Positions 1 to 6,577 of a DNA stretch of 6,577 nt are shown one piece after another (position 1 is the first letter of the stretch; each line of letters opens with the position of its first letter). The notes below the pieces were generated by a model. It had not been told where the DNA came from. It ran no database searches and saw only the letters and a list, made by a program, of their open reading frames with translations. Location: the NCBI GenBank assembly GCA_021835185.1, contig JAKBQO010000085.1, positions 1 to 6,577 of the forward strand, in the 5' to 3' direction. The position numbers and the translations under genes are program-made. Origin of the DNA: Thermoplasmata archaeon (GTDB lineage: Archaea; Thermoplasmatota; Thermoplasmata; Thermoplasmatales; Thermoplasmataceae).

Positions 1-114
1 TGCAACCTTTGCTTTTTTTTCCTTTAATAATTTTCGTGCCTTTCCTGGTGTTGTTGGCATTAAAGGTTCGTTGCGCATGTTTATGACGGGAACCCTCAGG
101 TCCTGTCCAGCCAT
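1..114 (-). CDS. IscB-like RRXRR/HNH RNA-guided nuclease, N-terminal fragment (partial)
   Basis: This is the N-terminal 38 residues of a protein that runs off the window at base 1. It reads MAGQDLRVPVINMRNEPLMP, then TTPGKARKLLKEKKAKVA. The hydrophobic strand followed by PLMP, a TP-xKAR-LL segment and a basic K-rich stretch is the hallmark PLMP/RRXRR start of IscB and related HNH nucleases of the IS200/IS605 world. In that family, the RuvC and HNH domains come later and an omega-RNA guides cleavage; none of those domains is visible here. The reading frame is open up to base 306, so ATGs at 276 (with GGTGAT upstream) and 288 are alternative starts. I chose the ATG at 114 because IscB proteins usually begin just before the PLMP strand and because the upstream stretch folds like RNA and reads like no known domain. 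The DNA is more GC-rich than its neighbours, which suggests transfer. The family call is fairly firm; the start is uncertain. Confidence 0.72.
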   Translation of the reverse strand, partial: MAGQDLRVPVINMRNEPLMPTTPGKARKLLKEKKAKVA

Positions 115-326
115 GCATGACTGTAGGTCCACATTGGGGTTGTTAGAAGGGGTTTTTAAACCATGCACACTGAGAGTTTCCTCTCTGTTTAATGCATGAT
201 CACAGTTGCCACGGACTTGTGGAGCATCCGTAGGTGTGTATGTATTTCTCCAATCTAACTTCTGCCTTTCTTTCATGTTTATCACCATGTCTTTCAAGCC
301 CTTCCGTCAGGGAGGGGTAGTTGACC
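115..326 (-). ncRNA. Putative omega-RNA scaffold of the IscB-like element
   Basis: About 210 bases lie between the lysJ 3' end and the PLMP-encoding frame, the place where IscB elements encode their guide RNA (guide at the 5' end, scaffold running into the ORF). On the minus strand it starts with GTCAACTACCCC, which I recall as a recurrent start of such scaffolds. Next comes a hairpin at 299-316 (seven-base arms with one mismatch, loop TGAC). Further hairpins are CCAC/GTGG at 209-222, and a long stem with CATGCA/TGCATG arms (193-198 and 162-167) enclosing GAGAG-GAAA-CUCUC at 172-185, which has a GNRA tetraloop. GGTT/AACC follows at 151-162. The guide would be the adjoining lysJ sequence, just above base 326. 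The hairpins are directly visible; the omega-RNA role is inferred from position and family knowledge. The boundaries are approximate. Confidence 0.5.
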
Positions 327-1503
327 CAACCACCTTTTTGCTGTGAGATTTTATACCTTGGGACATAATATTCGCAGCTTCTTGGATCTCGGAATCTGTA
401 ATAACATATGGCGGCAACATTCTCAATATATTAATTCCAGAATAAAGAGGCAGTACTCCCCTATTTATTATATCCATGAGAATTGGAAGGAATTTAACTT
501 TCAGTTCTATGGCATCCATAAGCCCCAGCCCTCTTATTTCTTTCACAATCTTTGAATCGTCCAGGGATTCACTCAGTGTCTTCCTGAATAGTTCACCTTT
601 TCTGGCAACATCATCTATCAGCGATTGGGATAACTGTTCTATGACTGCACTTCCGGCCGCCATGGAAAGGGGATTTCCTCCGGTTGTGGAAGACTGTTCC
701 CCCTTTGCAAGGTTGTCCATAAATTCAGGTTTGCCCGCAGCTATAGAGAGTGGAAGACCACCACCGATGCCCTTCCCTATTGTGATAATATCGGGCTTGA
801 TCCCGAAATGTTCGTGTGCCCACATTTTTCCTGTCCTGCCAAGTCCTGACTGTATTTCATCAGCAACTAGTATTATACCGTTATTCTCGGTAATTTGCCT
901 CAGCTCTTTTACATAATCCCTGTCAGGTATGTTTATGCCTCCTTCCCCCTGAACTGGTTCGAAAAATACTGCAGATATCTCATCATCCCTTTCTATTTTC
1001 TCAAGGTCTTCCATATTATTGTACCTTATAAATTCAACATTCTTCATGAGAATATCACCAAAAGATTGCCTGTATTTCTCAGAATATGTGATTGAAAGTG
1101 CCCCAGCGGTCTTTCCGTGGTAAGAATTGGTCATGGCTATAATTTTATGTTTTTTTGATGATTTAATTACTGTTTTTATAGCAGCCTCTATGGCCTCTGC
1201 ACCAGTATTTCCAAGGTAAAATTTGTCCAGGCCCGCCGGGACAATCCCTGTAAGGTTTTTCACAAATTCCTCCCTGGATGCTGTGTATTCAGACGCATGG
1301 GCTACTGGTATTGTATCGAATTGCCTGCATACTGCTTCTTTAATTTTATTGTTTCCATATCCCAGTATGGCCACCCCGTAGCCACCCATCATGTCAATAT
1401 ATCTTTTCCCGTTGATGTCATGGAGTATTGCACCATTTCCGTTGAGCACGTTTATTGGAAGCCTCTGGTAAGTATTAGCTATATGTTCATTTTCATAATT
1501 CAT
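307..1503 (-). CDS. lysJ: LysW-aminoadipate semialdehyde aminotransferase (class III PLP enzyme)
   Basis: LysJ uses glutamate as amino donor to convert LysW-bound alpha-aminoadipate semialdehyde to LysW-gamma-lysine in the cytoplasm. In some archaea the same enzyme also works in the parallel arginine route. The 398-residue protein has the fold-type I class III signatures. GNTGAEA (98-104) binds phosphate, NSYHGKT lies at 126-132, FEPVQGEGG at 181-189, and LVADEIQSGLGRTG (212-225) contains the cofactor-binding Asp215. TIGKGIGGG (241-249) holds Lys244, the likely Schiff-base lysine, and TTGGNP lies at 273-278. Its start overlaps the end of lysZ by 11 bases and has a GGTGAT ribosome-binding site at 1509-1514, so it is translated as the last gene of the lysW-Y-Z-J operon. 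Its last residues (about STTPP) and its stop codon lie in the adjoining IscB-like element, so the native C-terminus may have been altered slightly. The choice of LysJ over ArgD rests on the neighbouring lysW and lysZ. Confidence 0.92.
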   Translation of the reverse strand: MNYENEHIANTYQRLPINVLNGNGAILHDINGKRYIDMMGGYGVAILGYGNNKIKEAVCRQFDTIPVAHASEYTASREEFVKNLTGIVPAGLDKFYLGNTGAEAIEAAIKTVIKSSKKHKIIAMTNSYHGKTAGALSITYSEKYRQSFGDILMKNVEFIRYNNMEDLEKIERDDEISAVFFEPVQGEGGINIPDRDYVKELRQITENNGIILVADEIQSGLGRTGKMWAHEHFGIKPDIITIGKGIGGGLPLSIAAGKPEFMDNLAKGEQSSTTGGNPLSMAAGSAVIEQLSQSLIDDVARKGELFRKTLSESLDDSKIVKEIRGLGLMDAIELKVKFLPILMDIINRGVLPLYSGINILRMLPPYVITDSEIQEAANIMSQGIKSHSKKVVGSTTPP

Positions 1504-2257
1504 TACATATCACCGTGCCGCTATAGATGTCATAAAATGGGTTTGAAATAATTACCTGTTTTACACCCATTTCAAGTGCTTCAATTGATGCCATGAGTTT
1601 TTTATCCATACCAGTTCCTATATCTTTCAAAATACTCCTGATATATGTTGTATCTGCTTTTTCTATGATATTATTCTGATAGTAAAGTCCGTTGACGTTA
1701 GTTAGGAACACCAGGGAATCGGCCTTTAAAGCCCCTGCAACATATGCAGCGGCCCTGTCTGCATCGACGTTCAGATAACTCCCATTCCCATAAGCAATAG
1801 GGGATATTACCGGTATATACCCTGCATCTATGACTGCCTTTATGGGAATAGGATCTACGCCTTCTACCTTACCGGTATATCCACCATCTATTATCATTTT
1901 CCTGTTTTTCTCATTCATTATTACCAACTTTTCTTTTCTCTTTGCACTGATTATTCCATTTACCGTGATAGCCTTGATGCCATGTTCCTTTAAGTTTAAA
2001 ACCAATTTCTGGTTAATGAGATTCATAACCATTGTAAATATTTCAAGGGTGTTTCTGTCAGTATACCTGCTTCTTATACCCTCTGGTGACGTTACAAATT
2101 TTTTGGTATAATTAAAATTTTCAGCATGGTTATCCAGATAGTTCCCTCCTCCGTGAACTATTGAAAGCTCCCCGTCAAATTGTTCTATGACGGAATGAAG
2201 ATTATCGTCCTCGAGAAACTTTTCAAGTATGCTCCCACCTATTTTTAATACTTTCAT
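1493..2257 (-). CDS. lysZ: LysW-aminoadipate 6-kinase (amino acid kinase family)
   Basis: LysZ phosphorylates the side-chain carboxylate of alpha-aminoadipate carried on LysW, using ATP. The 254-residue protein shows the amino acid kinase fold. KIGGS (5-9) is the N-terminal phosphate-binding Lys/Gly loop, VHGGGNY (34-40) is the second glycine loop, and YLNVDADRAAAYVAGAL (161-177) is the nucleotide-side segment. LTNVNGLY lies at 185-192, and the C-terminal part has GTGMDKKLMASIEAL (214-228). The segment VTSPEGIRSRYTDR (55-68) resembles LysZ more than bacterial ArgB, which has a shorter loop there. It starts four bases after the lysY stop; a weak GTGAT ribosome-binding sequence overlaps that stop. 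Its stop lies inside the start of lysJ. A dual role with arginine synthesis is possible in archaea and cannot be settled from this sequence. Confidence 0.93.
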   Translation of the reverse strand: MKVLKIGGSILEKFLEDDNLHSVIEQFDGELSIVHGGGNYLDNHAENFNYTKKFVTSPEGIRSRYTDRNTLEIFTMVMNLINQKLVLNLKEHGIKAITVNGIISAKRKEKLVIMNEKNRKMIIDGGYTGKVEGVDPIPIKAVIDAGYIPVISPIAYGNGSYLNVDADRAAAYVAGALKADSLVFLTNVNGLYYQNNIIEKADTTYIRSILKDIGTGMDKKLMASIEALEMGVKQVIISNPFYDIYSGTVICNEL

Positions 2258-2261
2258 AATA

Positions 2262-3308
2262 TCACACCGGAAATAGTGATGGCATCATCAGGGCTTCGTA
2301 TTCATTAAATCCGTTCATAATGTTCATTGATTGTACTGCATTGCCCGCAGCGCCTTTTATTAGATTGTCAATAGCCCCGAACGATACTATCCTTTTTATG
2401 TATTTATCAATGGCAAATCCTATATCAGCAAAGTTTGACCCTATGACTGTTTTTGGATCAGGATACTTATAATTGCTTTTCCTGTCCATTATAAGCCTGA
2501 TAAATTTCTCATTTCCATAGAATTTCCTGAGCAGAGCCCATAATGAGATCTCCTCCTCCTCTCCGTAGATGCTAGAGGTGGTTAGTATGCCCCTCACCAT
2601 ATTGACAGAATGAGCAGAAAGGGCAATTTTTACCTTCTTCCCCGAGGCATATTCCAGTTCCTGCTCTATTTCAGGGGTATGTCTGTGGTTCACTGGTTTA
2701 TACGCCCTGATGGAATCGAATCTCTCTGAAAACACCTTTGATTCATCCAGTCCTGACCCGGAACCCGAGGATCCCACCTTTGCATCCACATTGATAATGT
2801 CACTGGACAGATCCAGGGATAGGAACGGGGCAATGCTATAGATGGATGACGATGCTATGCATCCTGGAGTTGCTATGTACCTGGCATTTTTAATCTGATC
2901 CCTATGAAGTTCAGGCATTCCGTATACAAATTTTTTTATCAGGTCTGGATAACCATGTTCATATCCATACCATGGCTTATACAGTTCAGGGTTTTTAAGC
3001 CTGAAATCTGCACTCATATCTATAATTTTAACTCCCGTTTCAACAAGTTCGGGGACGTATTTGATGGATGTCCCGTGCGGGAGTGCAAGGAATATTAAAT
3101 CCACCTTGCCTGCCATGTCCACCGGCGATATATCCTCAAATTTCAGATCCGTTAGCCCGTAAAGATCGGGGTGGATCCTTGAAACTTTTTCACCTCTGTG
3201 CCTGGTTGAAGACACTGAGGAAATCTCAATTTCCGGATGCCTGACAAGGAGTCTCATAAGTTCTCCGCCAACGTATCCCGATGCCCCCACAATTCCAACT
3301 TTGAGCAC
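2262..3308 (-). CDS. lysY: LysW-aminoadipyl phosphate reductase
   Basis: LysY is an NADPH-dependent reductase of the ArgC/Asd superfamily. It converts LysW-bound aminoadipyl-6-phosphate to the semialdehyde. From the GTG start at 3308 the protein has 348 residues, a normal length. It opens with a Rossmann motif, VGIVGASGYVGGE (4-16). ATPGCIASS (146-154) holds the catalytic cysteine near residue 150, KVGSSGSGSG lies at 177-186, and HSVNMVRG starting near residue 233 holds the likely catalytic histidine. I prefer GTG 3308 to the ATG at 3335 for two reasons. GGGGAG lies at good spacing just before the GTG, and the protein then begins directly with LKVGIVGASG as in relatives. The ATG would add nine residues and overlap the lysW tail by 26 bases, with no clear ribosome-binding site. 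It lies between lysW (one base after its stop) and lysZ in the operon. Confidence 0.93.
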   Translation of the reverse strand: MLKVGIVGASGYVGGELMRLLVRHPEIEISSVSSTRHRGEKVSRIHPDLYGLTDLKFEDISPVDMAGKVDLIFLALPHGTSIKYVPELVETGVKIIDMSADFRLKNPELYKPWYGYEHGYPDLIKKFVYGMPELHRDQIKNARYIATPGCIASSSIYSIAPFLSLDLSSDIINVDAKVGSSGSGSGLDESKVFSERFDSIRAYKPVNHRHTPEIEQELEYASGKKVKIALSAHSVNMVRGILTTSSIYGEEEEISLWALLRKFYGNEKFIRLIMDRKSNYKYPDPKTVIGSNFADIGFAIDKYIKRIVSFGAIDNLIKGAAGNAVQSMNIMNGFNEYEALMMPSLFPV

Positions 3309-3309
3309 T

Positions 3310-3483
3310 TTATTCTCCCCAGTCTTCCCCCACATTTTCGGCGGGTTTTATACTCACTACATCGGCATTGATTGAAGCAATTTCATAACTCATGCCGCAG
3401 GATCCGCATTCTACAAGTTCACCGGCCATTGAATCCTCAGGCAGGCTTATTTTCTCTCCGCATATTTTACACTTTGTTTCCAT
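3310..3483 (-). CDS. lysW: LysW alpha-aminoadipate carrier protein
   Basis: This small acidic carrier of 57 residues protects the amino group of alpha-aminoadipate. The substrate is joined to the side chain of the carrier's terminal glutamate and handed to LysZ, LysY and LysJ. The sequence starts METKCKICGEKISLPEDS and has two cysteine pairs, CKIC (5-8) and CGSC (26-29), forming a zinc-ribbon-like knuckle. It ends in EDWGE, the invariant C-terminal tail of the LysW family, with the final Glu as attachment site. A good Shine-Dalgarno sequence, AAAGGTG, lies about eight bases upstream of the ATG (plus-strand 3491-3497). It is the first gene of the lysW-lysY-lysZ-lysJ operon, and the lysY start follows its stop by one base. 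The length, both CxxC pairs and the tail make the call secure. Confidence 0.96.
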   Translation of the reverse strand: METKCKICGEKISLPEDSMAGELVECGSCGMSYEIASINADVVSIKPAENVGEDWGE

Positions 3484-3531
3484 TTTTTTTCACCTTTTAT
3501 TATACTTTACAAATAGCTATCAATAATCTGC

Positions 3532-3543
3532 TATTAATAAATA
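3532..3543 (-). promoter_or_regulatory. Probable TATA box of the lysW operon
   Basis: On the minus strand this reads ATATTTATTAATA, a reasonable archaeal TATA element, about 55 bases upstream of the lysW ATG. Transcription would then start near 3512 and leave a leader of roughly 28 bases that includes the AAAGGTG ribosome-binding site. The whole gap is AT-rich, so other TATA-like matches exist and the choice is tentative. Confidence 0.4.
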
Positions 3544-3714
3544 TTTGTATTTTATATTATTATTTTTAACATCTAAAGTTTATTTTCAAACTAAGATGCC
3601 ATTGTAACGTAATTATTTCATCCTATTTAAAATATACGAATATTGTATTTTTAATATGAAATTCGTAATCATTATGTTTAACGAGATACATGCTAATTAT
3701 TTCCTGAACAATTA

Positions 3715-3764
3715 AGAAAAATTTTGGCGTTAATATTAAAAATTTGTAATAATTATTAAAAATA
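3715..3764 (-). terminator. T-rich terminator candidates downstream of the cupin gene
   Basis: Beginning 14 bases beyond the cupin stop, the minus strand carries three runs of five T (near 3758-3762, 3738-3742 and 3717-3721) without a strong GC hairpin. Oligo-T tracts of this kind are the usual intrinsic termination signal in archaea. The rest of the 294-base gap (3484-3777) is very AT-rich; I see no gene in it. Confidence 0.4.
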
Positions 3765-3777
3765 TTATTATCAAAAT

Positions 3778-4134
3778 TTATTTCCGCAGATAGGAATCAG
3801 TTCCATTGATCCAGTCCGATCTAACTGGACTGAATACGTCAACGTCCAGGGTATCTTCAAGTGCTATAGCTTCATGTTTTATATTTGGAGGTATTATCAC
3901 TATTTCTCCCTGGCCAACGTCCATTTCCTTTCCGTCTATTTTAAAGTGAAGTTTTCCCTTCATTATCCACGTAATCTGCTCATTTTCATGCATATGCTCT
4001 GGTACCACACTGCCCTTCCGTATGTCTAACTGGGCGACCATTACCTTCTCGCCGTATACCAGTGGCCTGTAAAATGTCTCTGACAACTTTTCTTTTTTTA
4101 CCTTATCCCAGCTGTATTTGCTAATCTCTGCCAT
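3778..4134 (-). CDS. Small single-domain cupin, KdgF-like
   Basis: This 118-residue single-domain cupin is probably a metal-dependent enzyme or small-molecule-binding protein of the cytoplasm. Cupin motif 1 is seen as G41...HMHENEQITWIMKG (47-60), with His47, His49 and Gln53 as likely metal ligands; Gln replaces the usual Glu, as in many cupins of the HxHxxxQ type. Motif 2 is GQGEIVIIPPNIKHEA (74-89), with His87 as the fourth ligand. The C-terminal DVFSPVRSDWING (99-111) resembles the DVFSPxRxDW ending of KdgF-type cupins, which open unsaturated uronate rings in pectin and alginate breakdown; that function is only suggested. It follows the SDR gene by 42 bases but has its own TATA box placed for a leaderless transcript, so it may be expressed both alone and with the SDR gene. 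The fold is certain; the substrate is unknown. Confidence 0.88.
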   Translation of the reverse strand: MAEISKYSWDKVKKEKLSETFYRPLVYGEKVMVAQLDIRKGSVVPEHMHENEQITWIMKGKLHFKIDGKEMDVGQGEIVIIPPNIKHEAIALEDTLDVDVFSPVRSDWINGTDSYLRK

Positions 4135-4153
4135 GATATGATAAATAATATGC

Positions 4154-4165
4154 GGATATAAATTT
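4154..4165 (-). promoter_or_regulatory. TATA box of the cupin gene (leaderless spacing)
   Basis: The minus strand reads AAATTTATATCC, centred about 26 bases upstream of the cupin ATG at 4134. That spacing puts the transcription start at or next to the ATG. No Shine-Dalgarno sequence lies before the ATG, which fits a leaderless mRNA. The box sits in the 42-base gap after the SDR stop codon. Confidence 0.6.
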
Positions 4166-4176
4166 TACCAGAAATA

Positions 4177-4962
4177 TCAAATAGATTTTATTGTCCCGCC
4201 ATCTATGGGTATGTTTGCTCCGGTAATGTATGAAGAGAGCTCAGAACATAGAAATGCAACCAGGTTTCCGATCTCTTCAGGTTTTCCGAATCTACCTAAT
4301 GGTATTTCCTTTTTTAGTTGTGATTCCACATCTTCAATTGCCTTTCCTGTAGAGCTGGAAGTTTTTTCCAGTATATTTTTCAGGCGCTGTGTATAGAAAT
4401 ATCCTTGAGATATGGAATTCACATTTATATTATATTTACCCAATTCAATAGAGAGGGTCTTGCCCAGTGCAACAATGCCAGATCGCAGTGTATTTGAAAT
4501 TGCGAAGTTCTGAAGAGGATTCTTTGTAGTCATTGAAGTTATAAATATTATTCTGCCAAAATTAGACGCTACCATATCTACCATACACATGTCAATCATC
4601 CTTATTGTGGACTTGAGCATCATGTCAATATTATAATCCCAGTCAGATTCTGTGAGTTCCATAAAGGGGTCAACTCTCGGGTCTCCATAATTCATGACAA
4701 GGAAATCTATTTTTCCGTACTGTGTATGGGCAGATTCCACCACCCTTATAAGGTCATCCTTTCTGGAAAGGTCAGCAGGTAGGGCATTTATCGTAACGCC
4801 CGTTTCTTCCCTGATTTCAGCTCTGAGCATATCTATTTTTTCTTTGCTTCTGGAGAAAGTAGTAATGTTAACACCATATCTGGCAAGCGTCGAGATAACA
4901 CCTTTACCTATTCCAGTACTGCCGGCGCATACTATCACGTTTTTATTTTTCAGACCCTGCAT
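4177..4962 (-). CDS. Divergent SDR-family protein lacking the catalytic Tyr and Lys
   Basis: This 261-residue protein has the short-chain dehydrogenase/reductase Rossmann fold. The cofactor loop is CAGSTGIGKG (12-21). ADLSRKDD (63-70) is the usual adenine-side Asp segment, and the NNAG motif is altered to NYGD (91-94). ITSMT (141-145) keeps the catalytic Ser143. The C-terminal part PLGRFGKPEEIGNLVAFLCSE and ITGANIPIDGG is typical of FabG-like SDRs. Where YxxxK is expected, the sequence is SNTLR (156-160), so Tyr becomes Ser and Lys becomes Arg. I recall a group of beta-ketoacyl-reductase-like SDRs with this loss; classical hydride-transfer chemistry may be changed or absent. The gene has a TATA box for leaderless transcription, bracketed by an inverted repeat. 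The cupin gene follows 42 bases downstream, so a shared sugar or acid pathway is possible but unproven. Confidence 0.88.
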   Translation of the reverse strand: MQGLKNKNVIVCAGSTGIGKGVISTLARYGVNITTFSRSKEKIDMLRAEIREETGVTINALPADLSRKDDLIRVVESAHTQYGKIDFLVMNYGDPRVDPFMELTESDWDYNIDMMLKSTIRMIDMCMVDMVASNFGRIIFITSMTTKNPLQNFAISNTLRSGIVALGKTLSIELGKYNINVNSISQGYFYTQRLKNILEKTSSSTGKAIEDVESQLKKEIPLGRFGKPEEIGNLVAFLCSELSSYITGANIPIDGGTIKSI

Positions 4963-4970
4963 ATAAATTA

Positions 4971-5001
4971 AAACAGTTTTTAGCTTATAAATTTACTGTT
5001 T
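4971..5001 (-). promoter_or_regulatory. SDR gene promoter with an inverted repeat around the TATA box
   Basis: The minus-strand TATA element AAATTTATAAGC (4983-4994) is centred about 26 bases before the ATG at 4962, the spacing expected for a leaderless mRNA, and no ribosome-binding site is present. Perfect seven-base arms AAACAGT (4971-4977) and ACTGTTT (4995-5001) flank the TATA box with 17 bases between them. A dimeric repressor bound there would block TBP, so this is a plausible operator; the regulator is unknown. Confidence 0.55.
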
Positions 5002-5025
5002 CAAAAAGCAATCTTTTAGGCATGG

Positions 5026-5102
5026 CAGTGAAATGAAAAACAAACAGCTTATAATGCCAGGTTCCGGGACATGAAATATGAATACCAGAATGGCATTCAC
5101 TG
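5026..5102. repeat. Two overlapping inverted repeats in the divergent SDR/parA promoter region
   Basis: CAGTGAA (5026-5032) pairs with TTCACTG (5096-5102), and AATGCCA (5053-5059) pairs with TGGCATT (5091-5097). Each has seven perfect base pairs, but their right arms share two bases, so the two stems cannot both form in full. The second arm ends about 20 bases before the parA TATA box. The pair could be protein-binding sites, perhaps a partition site or an operator for the ParA cassette. Apart from these and the two promoters, I see no gene in 4963-5153. Confidence 0.35.
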
Positions 5103-5110
5103 ACACTATT

Positions 5111-5133
5111 TAATTGTGCAATTATTTAAATAC
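5111..5133 (+). promoter_or_regulatory. parA promoter: palindrome plus TATA box, leaderless spacing
   Basis: TAATTGTGCAATTA (5111-5124) is a palindrome with six-base arms and a two-base centre. It overlaps the start of the TATA element TTATTTAAATAC (5122-5133), which is centred about 26 bases before the parA ATG at 5154. No Shine-Dalgarno sequence precedes that ATG, so the mRNA is probably leaderless. A palindrome where the TFB-recognition element should lie is a good place for autorepression, which is common in par operons. The repressor role is inference. Confidence 0.55.
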
Positions 5134-5153
5134 AAATGAATGTTTTACATTAA

Positions 5154-6011
5154 ATGACTCATGTAATCAGTATTATTAATTTAAAGGGTGGAGTTGGAAA
5201 AACTCAGACGACCATAGCATTATCGGAATTTCTGGCAGCCAATTACAACAAGAAGGTATTAATTATTGACCTCGACCCACAGACGAATGCAACAGTTTCA
5301 CTGATGGATGAGAACAGGTGGCTGGAGCAGGATAAAAAAGGCAATACTGTATTTCAGCTTTTCAGCGATAAGGTTTACAACACTAAATTATTCAATATTG
5401 ATAATTCCATAGTAAAAAATGTTTCTAACATTGACTCTGGGATAAAAAATCTCGATTTGCTCCCATCAAGCCTTAGATTGATAGATATTCAGGACAAACT
5501 TCCACTTGTCTCCAATTCAGGATATTTTATAAAAACACCTATAACTATCCTCAAAGAATCACTGGCAAATGTTATAACAAACTACGATTATGTCATTATC
5601 GACTGCCCGCCAAATCTGGGTTTAATCACATTGTCCGGGATATTTATATCGGATTATTATCTCATACCCACTATTCCAGATATATTGTCCACATATGGTA
5701 TACCTCAAATTCTGACAAGGATAAATGCTTTTAAAAATGACGCAGGGATAAACATAAGGCCCTTAGGTATTGTCATTTCTATGTTCAGGTCCAATAACAG
5801 GCTGCATAATTCAATCGTGGAGTCACTAAAATACAAGGAAAGAAAAGGAGATTATCCGAGAATTTTTGATACCTATATTCCCCTTAGTGTAAAAATTTCT
5901 GAAGCTGCAGAATATCAGGCTGGTGTTAAAACTCTTCCCCAGAAATATGGTTATGAACTTTATGACAGATATAACCATCTTGTTGAAGAGGTGTTAAAAT
6001 ATGTCGAATAA
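5154..6011 (+). CDS. parA: ParA/Soj-family partition ATPase
   Basis: This is a 285-residue ParA-type ATPase of the MinD/ParA P-loop family. Such proteins form ATP-dependent dimers on nonspecific DNA and, with a partner, position plasmids, chromosome regions or other cargo. The deviant Walker A motif is KGGVGKT (11-17), with Lys11 as signature lysine. The Walker A' segment is VLIIDLDPQTNAT (35-47), and Walker B is YVIIDCPPNLG (146-156). The later LGIVISMF (204-211) and IPLSVKISEAAEYQ (242-255) also match Soj-like ParA proteins. There is no long N-terminal DNA-binding domain, so this is the short (type Ib or Soj-like) form. It overlaps the next gene by 11 bases, which indicates coupled translation, and the pair stands alone on the plus strand. 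It may be chromosomal or a remnant of an integrated plasmid; no replication or integrase gene is visible to decide. Confidence 0.92.
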   Translation: MTHVISIINLKGGVGKTQTTIALSEFLAANYNKKVLIIDLDPQTNATVSLMDENRWLEQDKKGNTVFQLFSDKVYNTKLFNIDNSIVKNVSNIDSGIKNLDLLPSSLRLIDIQDKLPLVSNSGYFIKTPITILKESLANVITNYDYVIIDCPPNLGLITLSGIFISDYYLIPTIPDILSTYGIPQILTRINAFKNDAGINIRPLGIVISMFRSNNRLHNSIVESLKYKERKGDYPRIFDTYIPLSVKISEAAEYQAGVKTLPQKYGYELYDRYNHLVEEVLKYVE

Positions 6012-6366
6012 GTCAACAGCTGCTGCATTGTCAGATATACTGAAATATATCGCAGATAAAATAGAGAGAAATCCGGAACTTGTTGAAAATTTCAAAATAG
6101 AGATAAAAATTAAGCCAGAGAAAAGGTTGGAAAAAGCAACTGGATTATCGGATTACGATACAGAAGGTGAGCTGTTTAATGCACTTAAAAAGAAAAATAT
6201 GGAACAATTGAAGTCAATAATAAGGGAAAATAAGCTTGGAAAAACTGCTTCTATTGCAAGTTTTAAAACTAAGGAAGAATTCATAAGATTCATAATTAAG
6301 AGGATAAATGATAGATATCACAAGGGTGATTCCTTTGGCCGTGTCTCACCTGAAAAAGTATCATGA
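6001..6366 (+). CDS. Small ParA-associated protein, probable partition partner
   Basis: This 121-residue, lysine-rich protein starts inside the 3' end of parA and has a strong GAGGTG ribosome-binding site seven bases before its ATG. The N-terminal helix AALSDILKYIADKIERNPELVENF (8-31) is followed by a charged linker. The C-terminal region, ELFNALKKKNMEQLKSIIRENKLG to KEEFIRFIIKRINDRYHKGDSF (57-112), looks like a small helical SAP/Rho-N-like DNA-binding module. I recall bacterial ParA-adjacent small proteins with the same layout: a predicted 'DPELA' N-terminal helix, then LR-xLK-IV-x-HGLD and a final R-x-KG-xxF. A role as ParA regulator or DNA adaptor follows from position and this resemblance, not from a firm family match. 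It has no HTH or ParB-type CTPase motif that I can see. Confidence 0.85.
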   Translation: MSNKSTAAALSDILKYIADKIERNPELVENFKIEIKIKPEKRLEKATGLSDYDTEGELFNALKKKNMEQLKSIIRENKLGKTASIASFKTKEEFIRFIIKRINDRYHKGDSFGRVSPEKVS

Positions 6367-6405
6367 GTGAATCCATGATTTCACCATGGCTCTAAAACTA
6401 TGGAA

Positions 6406-6418
6406 ATTTATATTTAAG
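6406..6418 (+). promoter_or_regulatory. Strong orphan TATA box
   Basis: ATTTATATTTAAG is a near-ideal archaeal TATA element, but no usable ORF follows: the ATG at 6433 meets a stop after four codons. The predicted transcription start, about 25 bases downstream near 6433-6437, coincides with the left arm of the nested inverted repeats, which suggests a non-coding transcript. Confidence 0.45.
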
Positions 6419-6432
6419 TAATAGAGGGAAAC

Positions 6433-6510
6433 ATGTGGATTATGTAATCATAAAAATTTCCTAAATTCCCTAATCATTAGGCATTATGATACCACATTCT
6501 CCTTTATTTT
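6433..6510 (+). ncRNA. Possible small structured RNA or partition-site hairpin
   Basis: Three nested inverted repeats are seen. ATGTGG (6433-6438) pairs with CCACAT (6492-6497), ATCATAA (6447-6453) with TTATGAT (6484-6490), and CCTAA (6469-6473) with TTAGG (6477-6481) around the loop TCA. A strong TATA box lies about 25 bases upstream, and a T-rich tract (6498-6510) follows, as in a short archaeal transcription unit. The stems are AT-rich and could instead be DNA sites for the neighbouring ParA cassette or part of a mobile-element end. I do not recognise an RNA family. Confidence 0.3.
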
Positions 6511-6531
6511 ACGGAACAGTAAAGGTTAAAT

Positions 6532-6555
6532 CATAATGTGTAATTACACATTATG
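6532..6555. repeat. Perfect 24-base palindrome over a predicted start codon
   Basis: The left half CATAATGTGTAA (6532-6543) is followed with no spacer by its exact reverse complement TTACACATTATG (6544-6555). A TATA-like TTAAAT (6526-6531) lies immediately upstream, and the last three bases are an ATG with an open frame. The layout is that of an operator between promoter and start. Its TGTGTAATTA core (6537-6546) differs at one base from TGTGCAATTA in the parA promoter palindrome. Confidence 0.6.
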
Positions 6556-6577
6556 TCTTTCATAAGATTCAAGAAGA
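6553..6577 (+). CDS. Start of an unidentified gene (partial, cut by the window end)
   Basis: An ATG at 6553 opens a frame of eight codons, MSFIRFKK, that runs off the window. A TATA-like TTAAAT lies about 25 bases upstream, the leaderless spacing seen at other genes here, and the perfect palindrome overlaps the ATG. The N-terminus faintly recalls the start of some archaeal DDE transposases, but eight residues cannot establish a family. Confidence 0.35.

Follow-up and report, generated by a model that had tools for sequence, protein, structure and literature searches.

What occupies the edge of this contig, where a hairpin-rich stretch and the beginning of a nuclease-like frame lie against a lysine biosynthesis gene, and how could it have come to be there? 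The window, by which we mean the whole 6,577-nucleotide stretch of DNA analysed here, comes from a Ferroplasma-like, acid-loving archaeon of the order Thermoplasmatales. Across the pieces they have in common, it is 99.8-100% identical to a contig of the Ferroplasmaceae genome UBA567 and 75-81% identical to Ferroplasma acidarmanus Fer1. Its minus strand holds a LysW-dependent lysine cluster, whose genes (lysW, lysY, lysZ and lysJ) are named by their Pfam families and their order (Table 1). Elsewhere in the window, at 5154-6366 on the plus strand, a ParA-like ATPase gene overlaps a gene for 121 amino acids without a Pfam match, a possible partition pair.

We think it very probable that the locus is an IscB/HEARO transposon inserted at the ATGA shared by lysJ and lysX, that it belongs to a family that docks at start codons, that it works through a guide, IscB cleavage and TnpA as its relatives suggest, and that the copy in the window is possibly impaired. 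Four observations can be read directly from the DNA: a HEARO RNA with covariation, an IscB N-terminus, an IscB C-terminus at lysX in UBA567, and empty sites.

The insertion site is defined by comparison with relatives. In seven of them (L002-L008) lysX lies directly 3' of lysJ, lysX being identified by the Pfam LysX family match of the F. acidarmanus query protein, and at the empty junction of F. acidarmanus the stop and start overlap as ATGA. Set against such empty junctions, the left boundary of the element is GTCAAC at 325. The window lysJ is native down to 326; after GGTGGTTGG it reads into the element and stops five codons later (STTPP, then the stop ending at 307), and these last five LysJ codons and the stop are element sequence. 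The initial annotation had placed an IscB-like nuclease directly abutting lysJ. The adjacency holds, but mere abutment does not describe it, as the element replaces the lysJ stop and is inserted in the lysJ/lysX stop-start overlap.

The far side of the insertion is visible in UBA567. One of its contigs (C46, L001) ends within the omega-RNA, 3' of lysJ, and another (C76) opens with 93 C-terminal IscB residues that finish exactly at the lysX start, ATGAAAGTT; the right junction reads GGGGGGAGTTAG up to the boundary and ATGAAAGTTTC, the lysX start, beyond it. The middle part of IscB is absent from the UBA567 contigs. Most simply, these contigs present the same insertion, viewed from both sides, in a near-identical strain. 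Sequence comparison revealed no target duplication at the insertion, and no empty allele from the window's own species turned up. A second UBA567 IscB copy (C113; L214 479-440, minus strand) sits at the 3' end of a gene for dihydroorotate dehydrogenase (Pfam DHO_dh), which is extended into the element in the same frame as LysJ, ending in IQSTTPSSRRGLVP and a stop. The C113 contig contains a run of N within the omega-RNA.

Table 1. Features of the window, with positions counted from its first base
Feature	Positions	Strand	Basis and remarks
5' part of ISC/HEARO mobile element (omega-RNA and iscB start)	1..325	-	HEARO and RRXRR matches; runs past base 1
iscB codons 1-38 (PLMP/RRXRR N-terminus), frame open at contig end	1..114	-	Profile matches; start by comparison
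HEARO (omega-RNA) scaffold	123..325	-	Rfam RF02033; alignment of copies; family covariation
GAAA-capped omega-RNA hairpin, helix 12 of the pair count	172..185	-	HEARO match and pair count
Predicted 16-nt guide GCAAAAAGGTGGTTGG, native lysJ 3' end	326..341	-	Position 5' of scaffold
lysJ, chimeric C-terminus	307..1503	-	Pfam Aminotran_3; seven relatives compared; name from operon order
lysZ	1493..2257	-	Pfam AA_kinase; the lysZ-lysJ junction is the site of a related intact IscB element in L003
lysY	2262..3335	-	Pfam Semialdhyde_dh; lysine cluster
lysW	3310..3483	-	Pfam Zn_ribbon_LysW; lysine cluster

The frame that runs off the contig encodes MAGQDLRVPVINMRNEPLMPTTPGKARKLLKEKKAKVA, and the PLMP-type N-terminus described earlier is present in it. 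The Pfam RRXRR profile matches at 30.7 bits (cut-off 25) over positions 1-30 of 174, and NCBIfam guided_IscB matches over its positions 3-30 (E 2.9e-06); the latter's cut-off of 175 applies to the whole protein, and the 38 codons in the window bring only 26.6 bits, far below it. The contig ends before the catalytic residues, and RuvC and HNH were read in a sibling. This sibling (L003) is an intact related element between lysZ and lysJ, with a HEARO RNA followed by a 413-residue protein that carries the full RRXRR profile and HNH domains by Pfam, scores 359.6 bits against the guided_IscB equivalog (cut-off 175) and matches the chains of OgeuIscB at E 2.1e-36; its RuvC residues were judged by eye on the alignment. 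The search for IscB domains proposed at the outset thus succeeds in the sibling and extends in the window to 38 codons. The lysZ/lysJ junction is empty in F. acidarmanus (L002) and L008, where it reads GTGATTTATA before and ATGAATTATGA after the site. Of the 16 bases that precede the L003 element on its 5' side, 15 are identical to the empty site of F. acidarmanus and 12-14 to the sites of the six others compared.

Characterised IscB proteins, OgeuIscB among them (PDB 7xht, 7utn, 9k30), share the PLMP/RRXRR N-terminus and HNH with the sibling, and their HEARO RNA lies directly 5' of the ORF, as it does in the sibling and, on the same strand, in the window. The sibling differs from OgeuIscB in being compact (413 aa), in having an archaeal host and in an IscB-frame stop that is completed by the target; its nuclease activity is predicted.

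The RNA was recognised by a covariance model. Rfam HEARO (RF02033) matches the window over its whole length (model 1-211) at 90.7 bits (gathering 83; E 4.4e-18), and membership in RF02033 goes by score, which the window copy attains although its consensus helices are incomplete, the second hairpin and the pairing strand of the first stem being absent. Like the family, the window copy begins with GTCAAC and is inserted before ATGA/GTGA; unlike it, it is without about 40 nt. What had been described as some 210 hairpin-rich and relatively GC-rich bases upstream of the ORF is in large part this scaffold (GC 0.45 for 123-325 versus 0.38 for 326-6577), and the GNRA-capped stem is there as GAGAG-GAAA-CTCTC, nested in the longer CATGCA/TGCATG stem. 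The order of an IscB locus, guide, scaffold and then ORF, is likewise as first proposed, with the guide itself predicted from position.

These features suggest the following mechanism. An OMEGA transposon, of which 1-325 is the left part, was very probably inserted between lysJ and lysX, exactly before the ATGA that serves lysX as start (ATG) and had served lysJ as stop (TGA). By analogy with the family, its omega-RNA would take its guide from the lysJ 3' end (the length of 16 nt follows that of guides in IscB systems), IscB so guided would cut the empty site, made up of guide plus ATGA motif, and the element would thereby be retained; a Y1 TnpA supplied in trans would move it. With a target motif made up of a start codon and a following A, the element would dock at gene starts and spare the host gene. 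Its right end would offer a Shine-Dalgarno (SD)-like sequence to the downstream gene, its IscB frame would often be closed by the target's own bases, which puts its stop across the host start, and the upstream gene would meet an early stop in the left end.

Docking at starts can be examined across the family. Of 117 genomes from the order, 10 have HEARO matches under strict filters; an overlapping phylum sample, filtered as strictly and with at most five candidates scored per genome, gave 10 of 389. A single genome has up to ten matches. Among 35 copies, including the window, nine have no recognised right end (the window among them), and two of the 26 estimated right ends have no nearby [AG]TGA (one lies at a contig end), which leaves 24 elements. 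Each right end estimated by BLAST was moved to the closest [AG]TGA, by 4 bases at most. In 20 of 24 the motif stands exactly at the estimated end with no shift, but seven of those 20 are search templates whose ends were set by eye at ATGA, and the independent figure is 13 of 17. With a start-like ATG defined as the first codon of an ORF of 80 or more codons, preceded in the empty site by at most 40 open codons, the right end falls directly before such an ATG in 18 of 24 elements, compared with 111 of 2504 other [AG]TGA sites in the flanks; six elements do not lie before one. A stricter null, in which the start is the most upstream one, counts 38 of 2939 sites, and the looser 111 is used here because both sides of the comparison then follow one rule. 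Insertion before ATGA/GTGA was reportedly part of the first description of HEARO, that of Weinberg in 2009.

A wider count gives a downstream ORF of at least 80 codons in 28 of 33 elements, namely the 24, eight UBA567 places and the UBA567 lysX end. The eight places were chosen by eye for ending at ATG[AG], with five of 13 excluded, and 28 of 33 is therefore biased upward and 18 of 24 the cleaner figure. The eight (L138-L143, L145 and L148) are derivatives of about 240-330 bp whose G-rich end comes right before an ATG that opens a long ORF; UBA567 holds about a dozen short, degenerate element copies. At 4 of the 24 empty sites (two of them one site that recurs in two genomes) the TGA closes a long ORF, the background being 64 of 2504, and true stop-start overlaps like that of lysJ and lysX are therefore a minority. 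Two genomes (G006 and G007) have an element at seemingly the same site (L106 3060 and L112 5276), which is 1037 bp long with IscB remains in one and a 452-bp derivative in the other.

The ends of the elements have properties of their own. Their last 20 bases pair with the anti-Shine-Dalgarno string at a mean of -9.1 kcal/mol, and pairing of -6 kcal/mol or below is found at 29 of 33 element ends, compared with 7 of 25 native leaders (three UBA567 rows excluded; Fisher p 5e-6) and 16% of 814 control sites. The count of IscB-frame stops covers the 13 of 24 elements in which an IscB-frame ORF ends no more than 80 bases from the right end; the stop takes all four target bases in eight of the 13 (the TGA of ATGA being the stop), one in three and none in two, and five of the 13 ORFs are shortened IscB remains. 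At the left end, 20 of 35 copies have a stop in the first 30 nt of the frame that a stop-start overlap sets, versus 9 of 35 copies for each of the other two frames. The positions and boundaries of the elements, their pairing potential and their frames are facts of sequence; the downstream gene would be translated from sequence that the element supplies.

A competing account of the start bias is survivorship. It holds that insertions within genes were purged and that the element favours starts only through its ATGA motif, and as a reading of the family as a whole we consider it close to evenly balanced, leaning slightly against it. ATGA is present at many starts, and these genomes are compact, with 2383 of 2939 [AG]TGA sites genic, as this account would have it. 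The excess nevertheless persists against non-genic sites (18 of 24, versus 111 start-like to 518 intergenic sites; binomial p 1.2e-9), and an SD-like sequence stands close to the ATG at the right end; both speak against survivorship alone. Selection may be the cause of both the start bias and the SD-like end. Beyond the transposon reading itself, one may propose that the Thermoplasmatales IscB/HEARO is built for start docking: it would carry a portable ribosome-binding site, use the host ATGA to close iscB and couple its translation to that of the host gene, and stop the upstream frame with its left end, making insertion into operons nearly costless while the guide polices the vacated start. 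This proposal is tentative, and we judge it rather less probable than its contrary.

A second alternative concerns the window copy and is compatible with the transposon reading. The omega-RNA of the window is about 40 nt shorter than that of most relatives. The loss, located at about 301-285 on the minus strand of the window and at L001 5620-5686, is common to the window and UBA567, apparently arose between GGGCTT direct repeats, and removes the second of the small hairpins together with the pairing partner of GUCAAC; the window copy may therefore be impaired and guide poorly or not at all. The locus could accordingly be a decayed relic, IscB/HEARO by descent and no longer functional, which stays in place because it hardly harms the lys genes, a possibility that we take seriously while thinking it somewhat the less probable one. 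The shared loss of these pairing elements and the dozen or so short degenerate copies in UBA567 speak for decay, but the two known ends of IscB both show an open and well-conserved frame, and what remains of the RNA still scores above the HEARO gathering threshold.

Folded as a single sequence, the 5' 131 nt of the omega-RNA show no clear gain in stability over shuffled versions (z -0.71; 43 of 200 of these equally stable), and of the structural checks first proposed it is the covariance model and the covariation, rather than the single-sequence fold, that support a structured RNA here. The alignment comprises 33 chosen copies (L092, L105, L107, L113, L116, L117, L201, L204 and L206 were excluded as duplicates, fragments or poor matches). 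Its RNAalifold consensus has only 31 pairs, and the Rfam structure, transferred to the alignment via L087, was therefore used for the count; three of its 67 pairs were dropped where the partner is a gap in L087, leaving 64, which include two hand-carried pairs (columns 10-57 and 35-50) that pair in no sequence. Two-sided changes occur in 35 of the 64 pairs, as expected from the prediction of compensatory base changes in 115-326. The cells with such changes number 139, versus a mean of 53.8 on shuffling and 20-49 with the partner slid, and 79% of cells pair, versus 33-44% with a slid partner; kinship alone can beat shuffled controls without structure, whereas slid controls retain relatedness. 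Helix 3 is the weak spot, with only 44% of its cells pairing. That 115-326 is protein-coding rather than RNA, through the 99-residue open frame at 297-1 that crosses the region and has a long counterpart in L003, we regard as highly improbable, as this candidate is rejected by the HEARO match and its two-sided compensatory changes, by a 5' region whose length varies among copies, and by IscB similarity that begins only at residue 69-71 of the frame.

A way in which the element may move is suggested by a known family of mobile elements. Insertion without target duplication is a trait of the IS200/IS605 family (TnpA plus TnpB), and the transposon described here resembles that family in this and in a 21-23-nt hairpin stretch of the HEARO left end, which is also found near 7 of 30 Y1 TnpA loci searched; the one such locus read in detail (L169) is a TnpA/TnpB element. 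It differs in that its RNA lies at the left end and in that the intact 1509-bp L003 element, in which HEARO and iscB only were read, contains no Y1 TnpA gene such as an autonomous IS200/IS605 element would carry; the window element is incomplete. A search of 11 genomes gave Y1 TnpA matches in 10. One genome with five HEARO matches (G094) gave no Y1 match in this search, which counts against a role of TnpA in trans.

In bacteria, the generality of docking is weaker than in the archaeal set and suggestive only. A phylum sample of 398 genomes yielded two with a match, one above the cut-off, too few for generality, and eight further genomes (seven bacterial, one archaeal) yielded no HEARO match. 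In a set of 17 elements, drawn from 16 of 98 matching plasmid records plus the second element of one plasmid, 10 of 17 IscB loci lie at starts, compared with 55 of 215 other stops (Fisher p 0.009). The clear cases are two Polaromonas elements and the parA-IscB-parB arrangements in Trichormus and Deinococcus, and their SD-like pairing reaches only about -6. The latter two (L195, L186), from plasmids of two phyla, have IscB placed at the start of parB, with parA on its other side.

Archaeal IscB/HEARO loci have already been published, as two reports make clear (PMC9755519, PMC12988326), and the suggestion that Thermoplasmatales-like archaea are a little-explored source of such nucleases is accordingly correct only in part. 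In the main text of PMC9755519, 'start codon' and 'ATGA' occur zero times. The titles and abstract openings surveyed, a set outside of which the key IscB/HEARO papers lie, record no case of docking at start codons, of a ribosome-binding site carried by the element or of a stop borrowed from the target, and the novelty of start-codon docking is not established.

The loci described here add archaeal acidophile members, including an intact 413-aa sibling, to a family of compact nucleases of practical interest. They also offer a testable account of how an RNA-guided mobile nuclease could reside inside biosynthetic clusters: its target motif coincides with start codons, and the end of the element would offer a ribosome-binding site that replaces the gene's own. 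If general, this account would supply a rationale for the ATGA/GTGA target rule, and it would predict both where such elements are located and what their guides naturally target.
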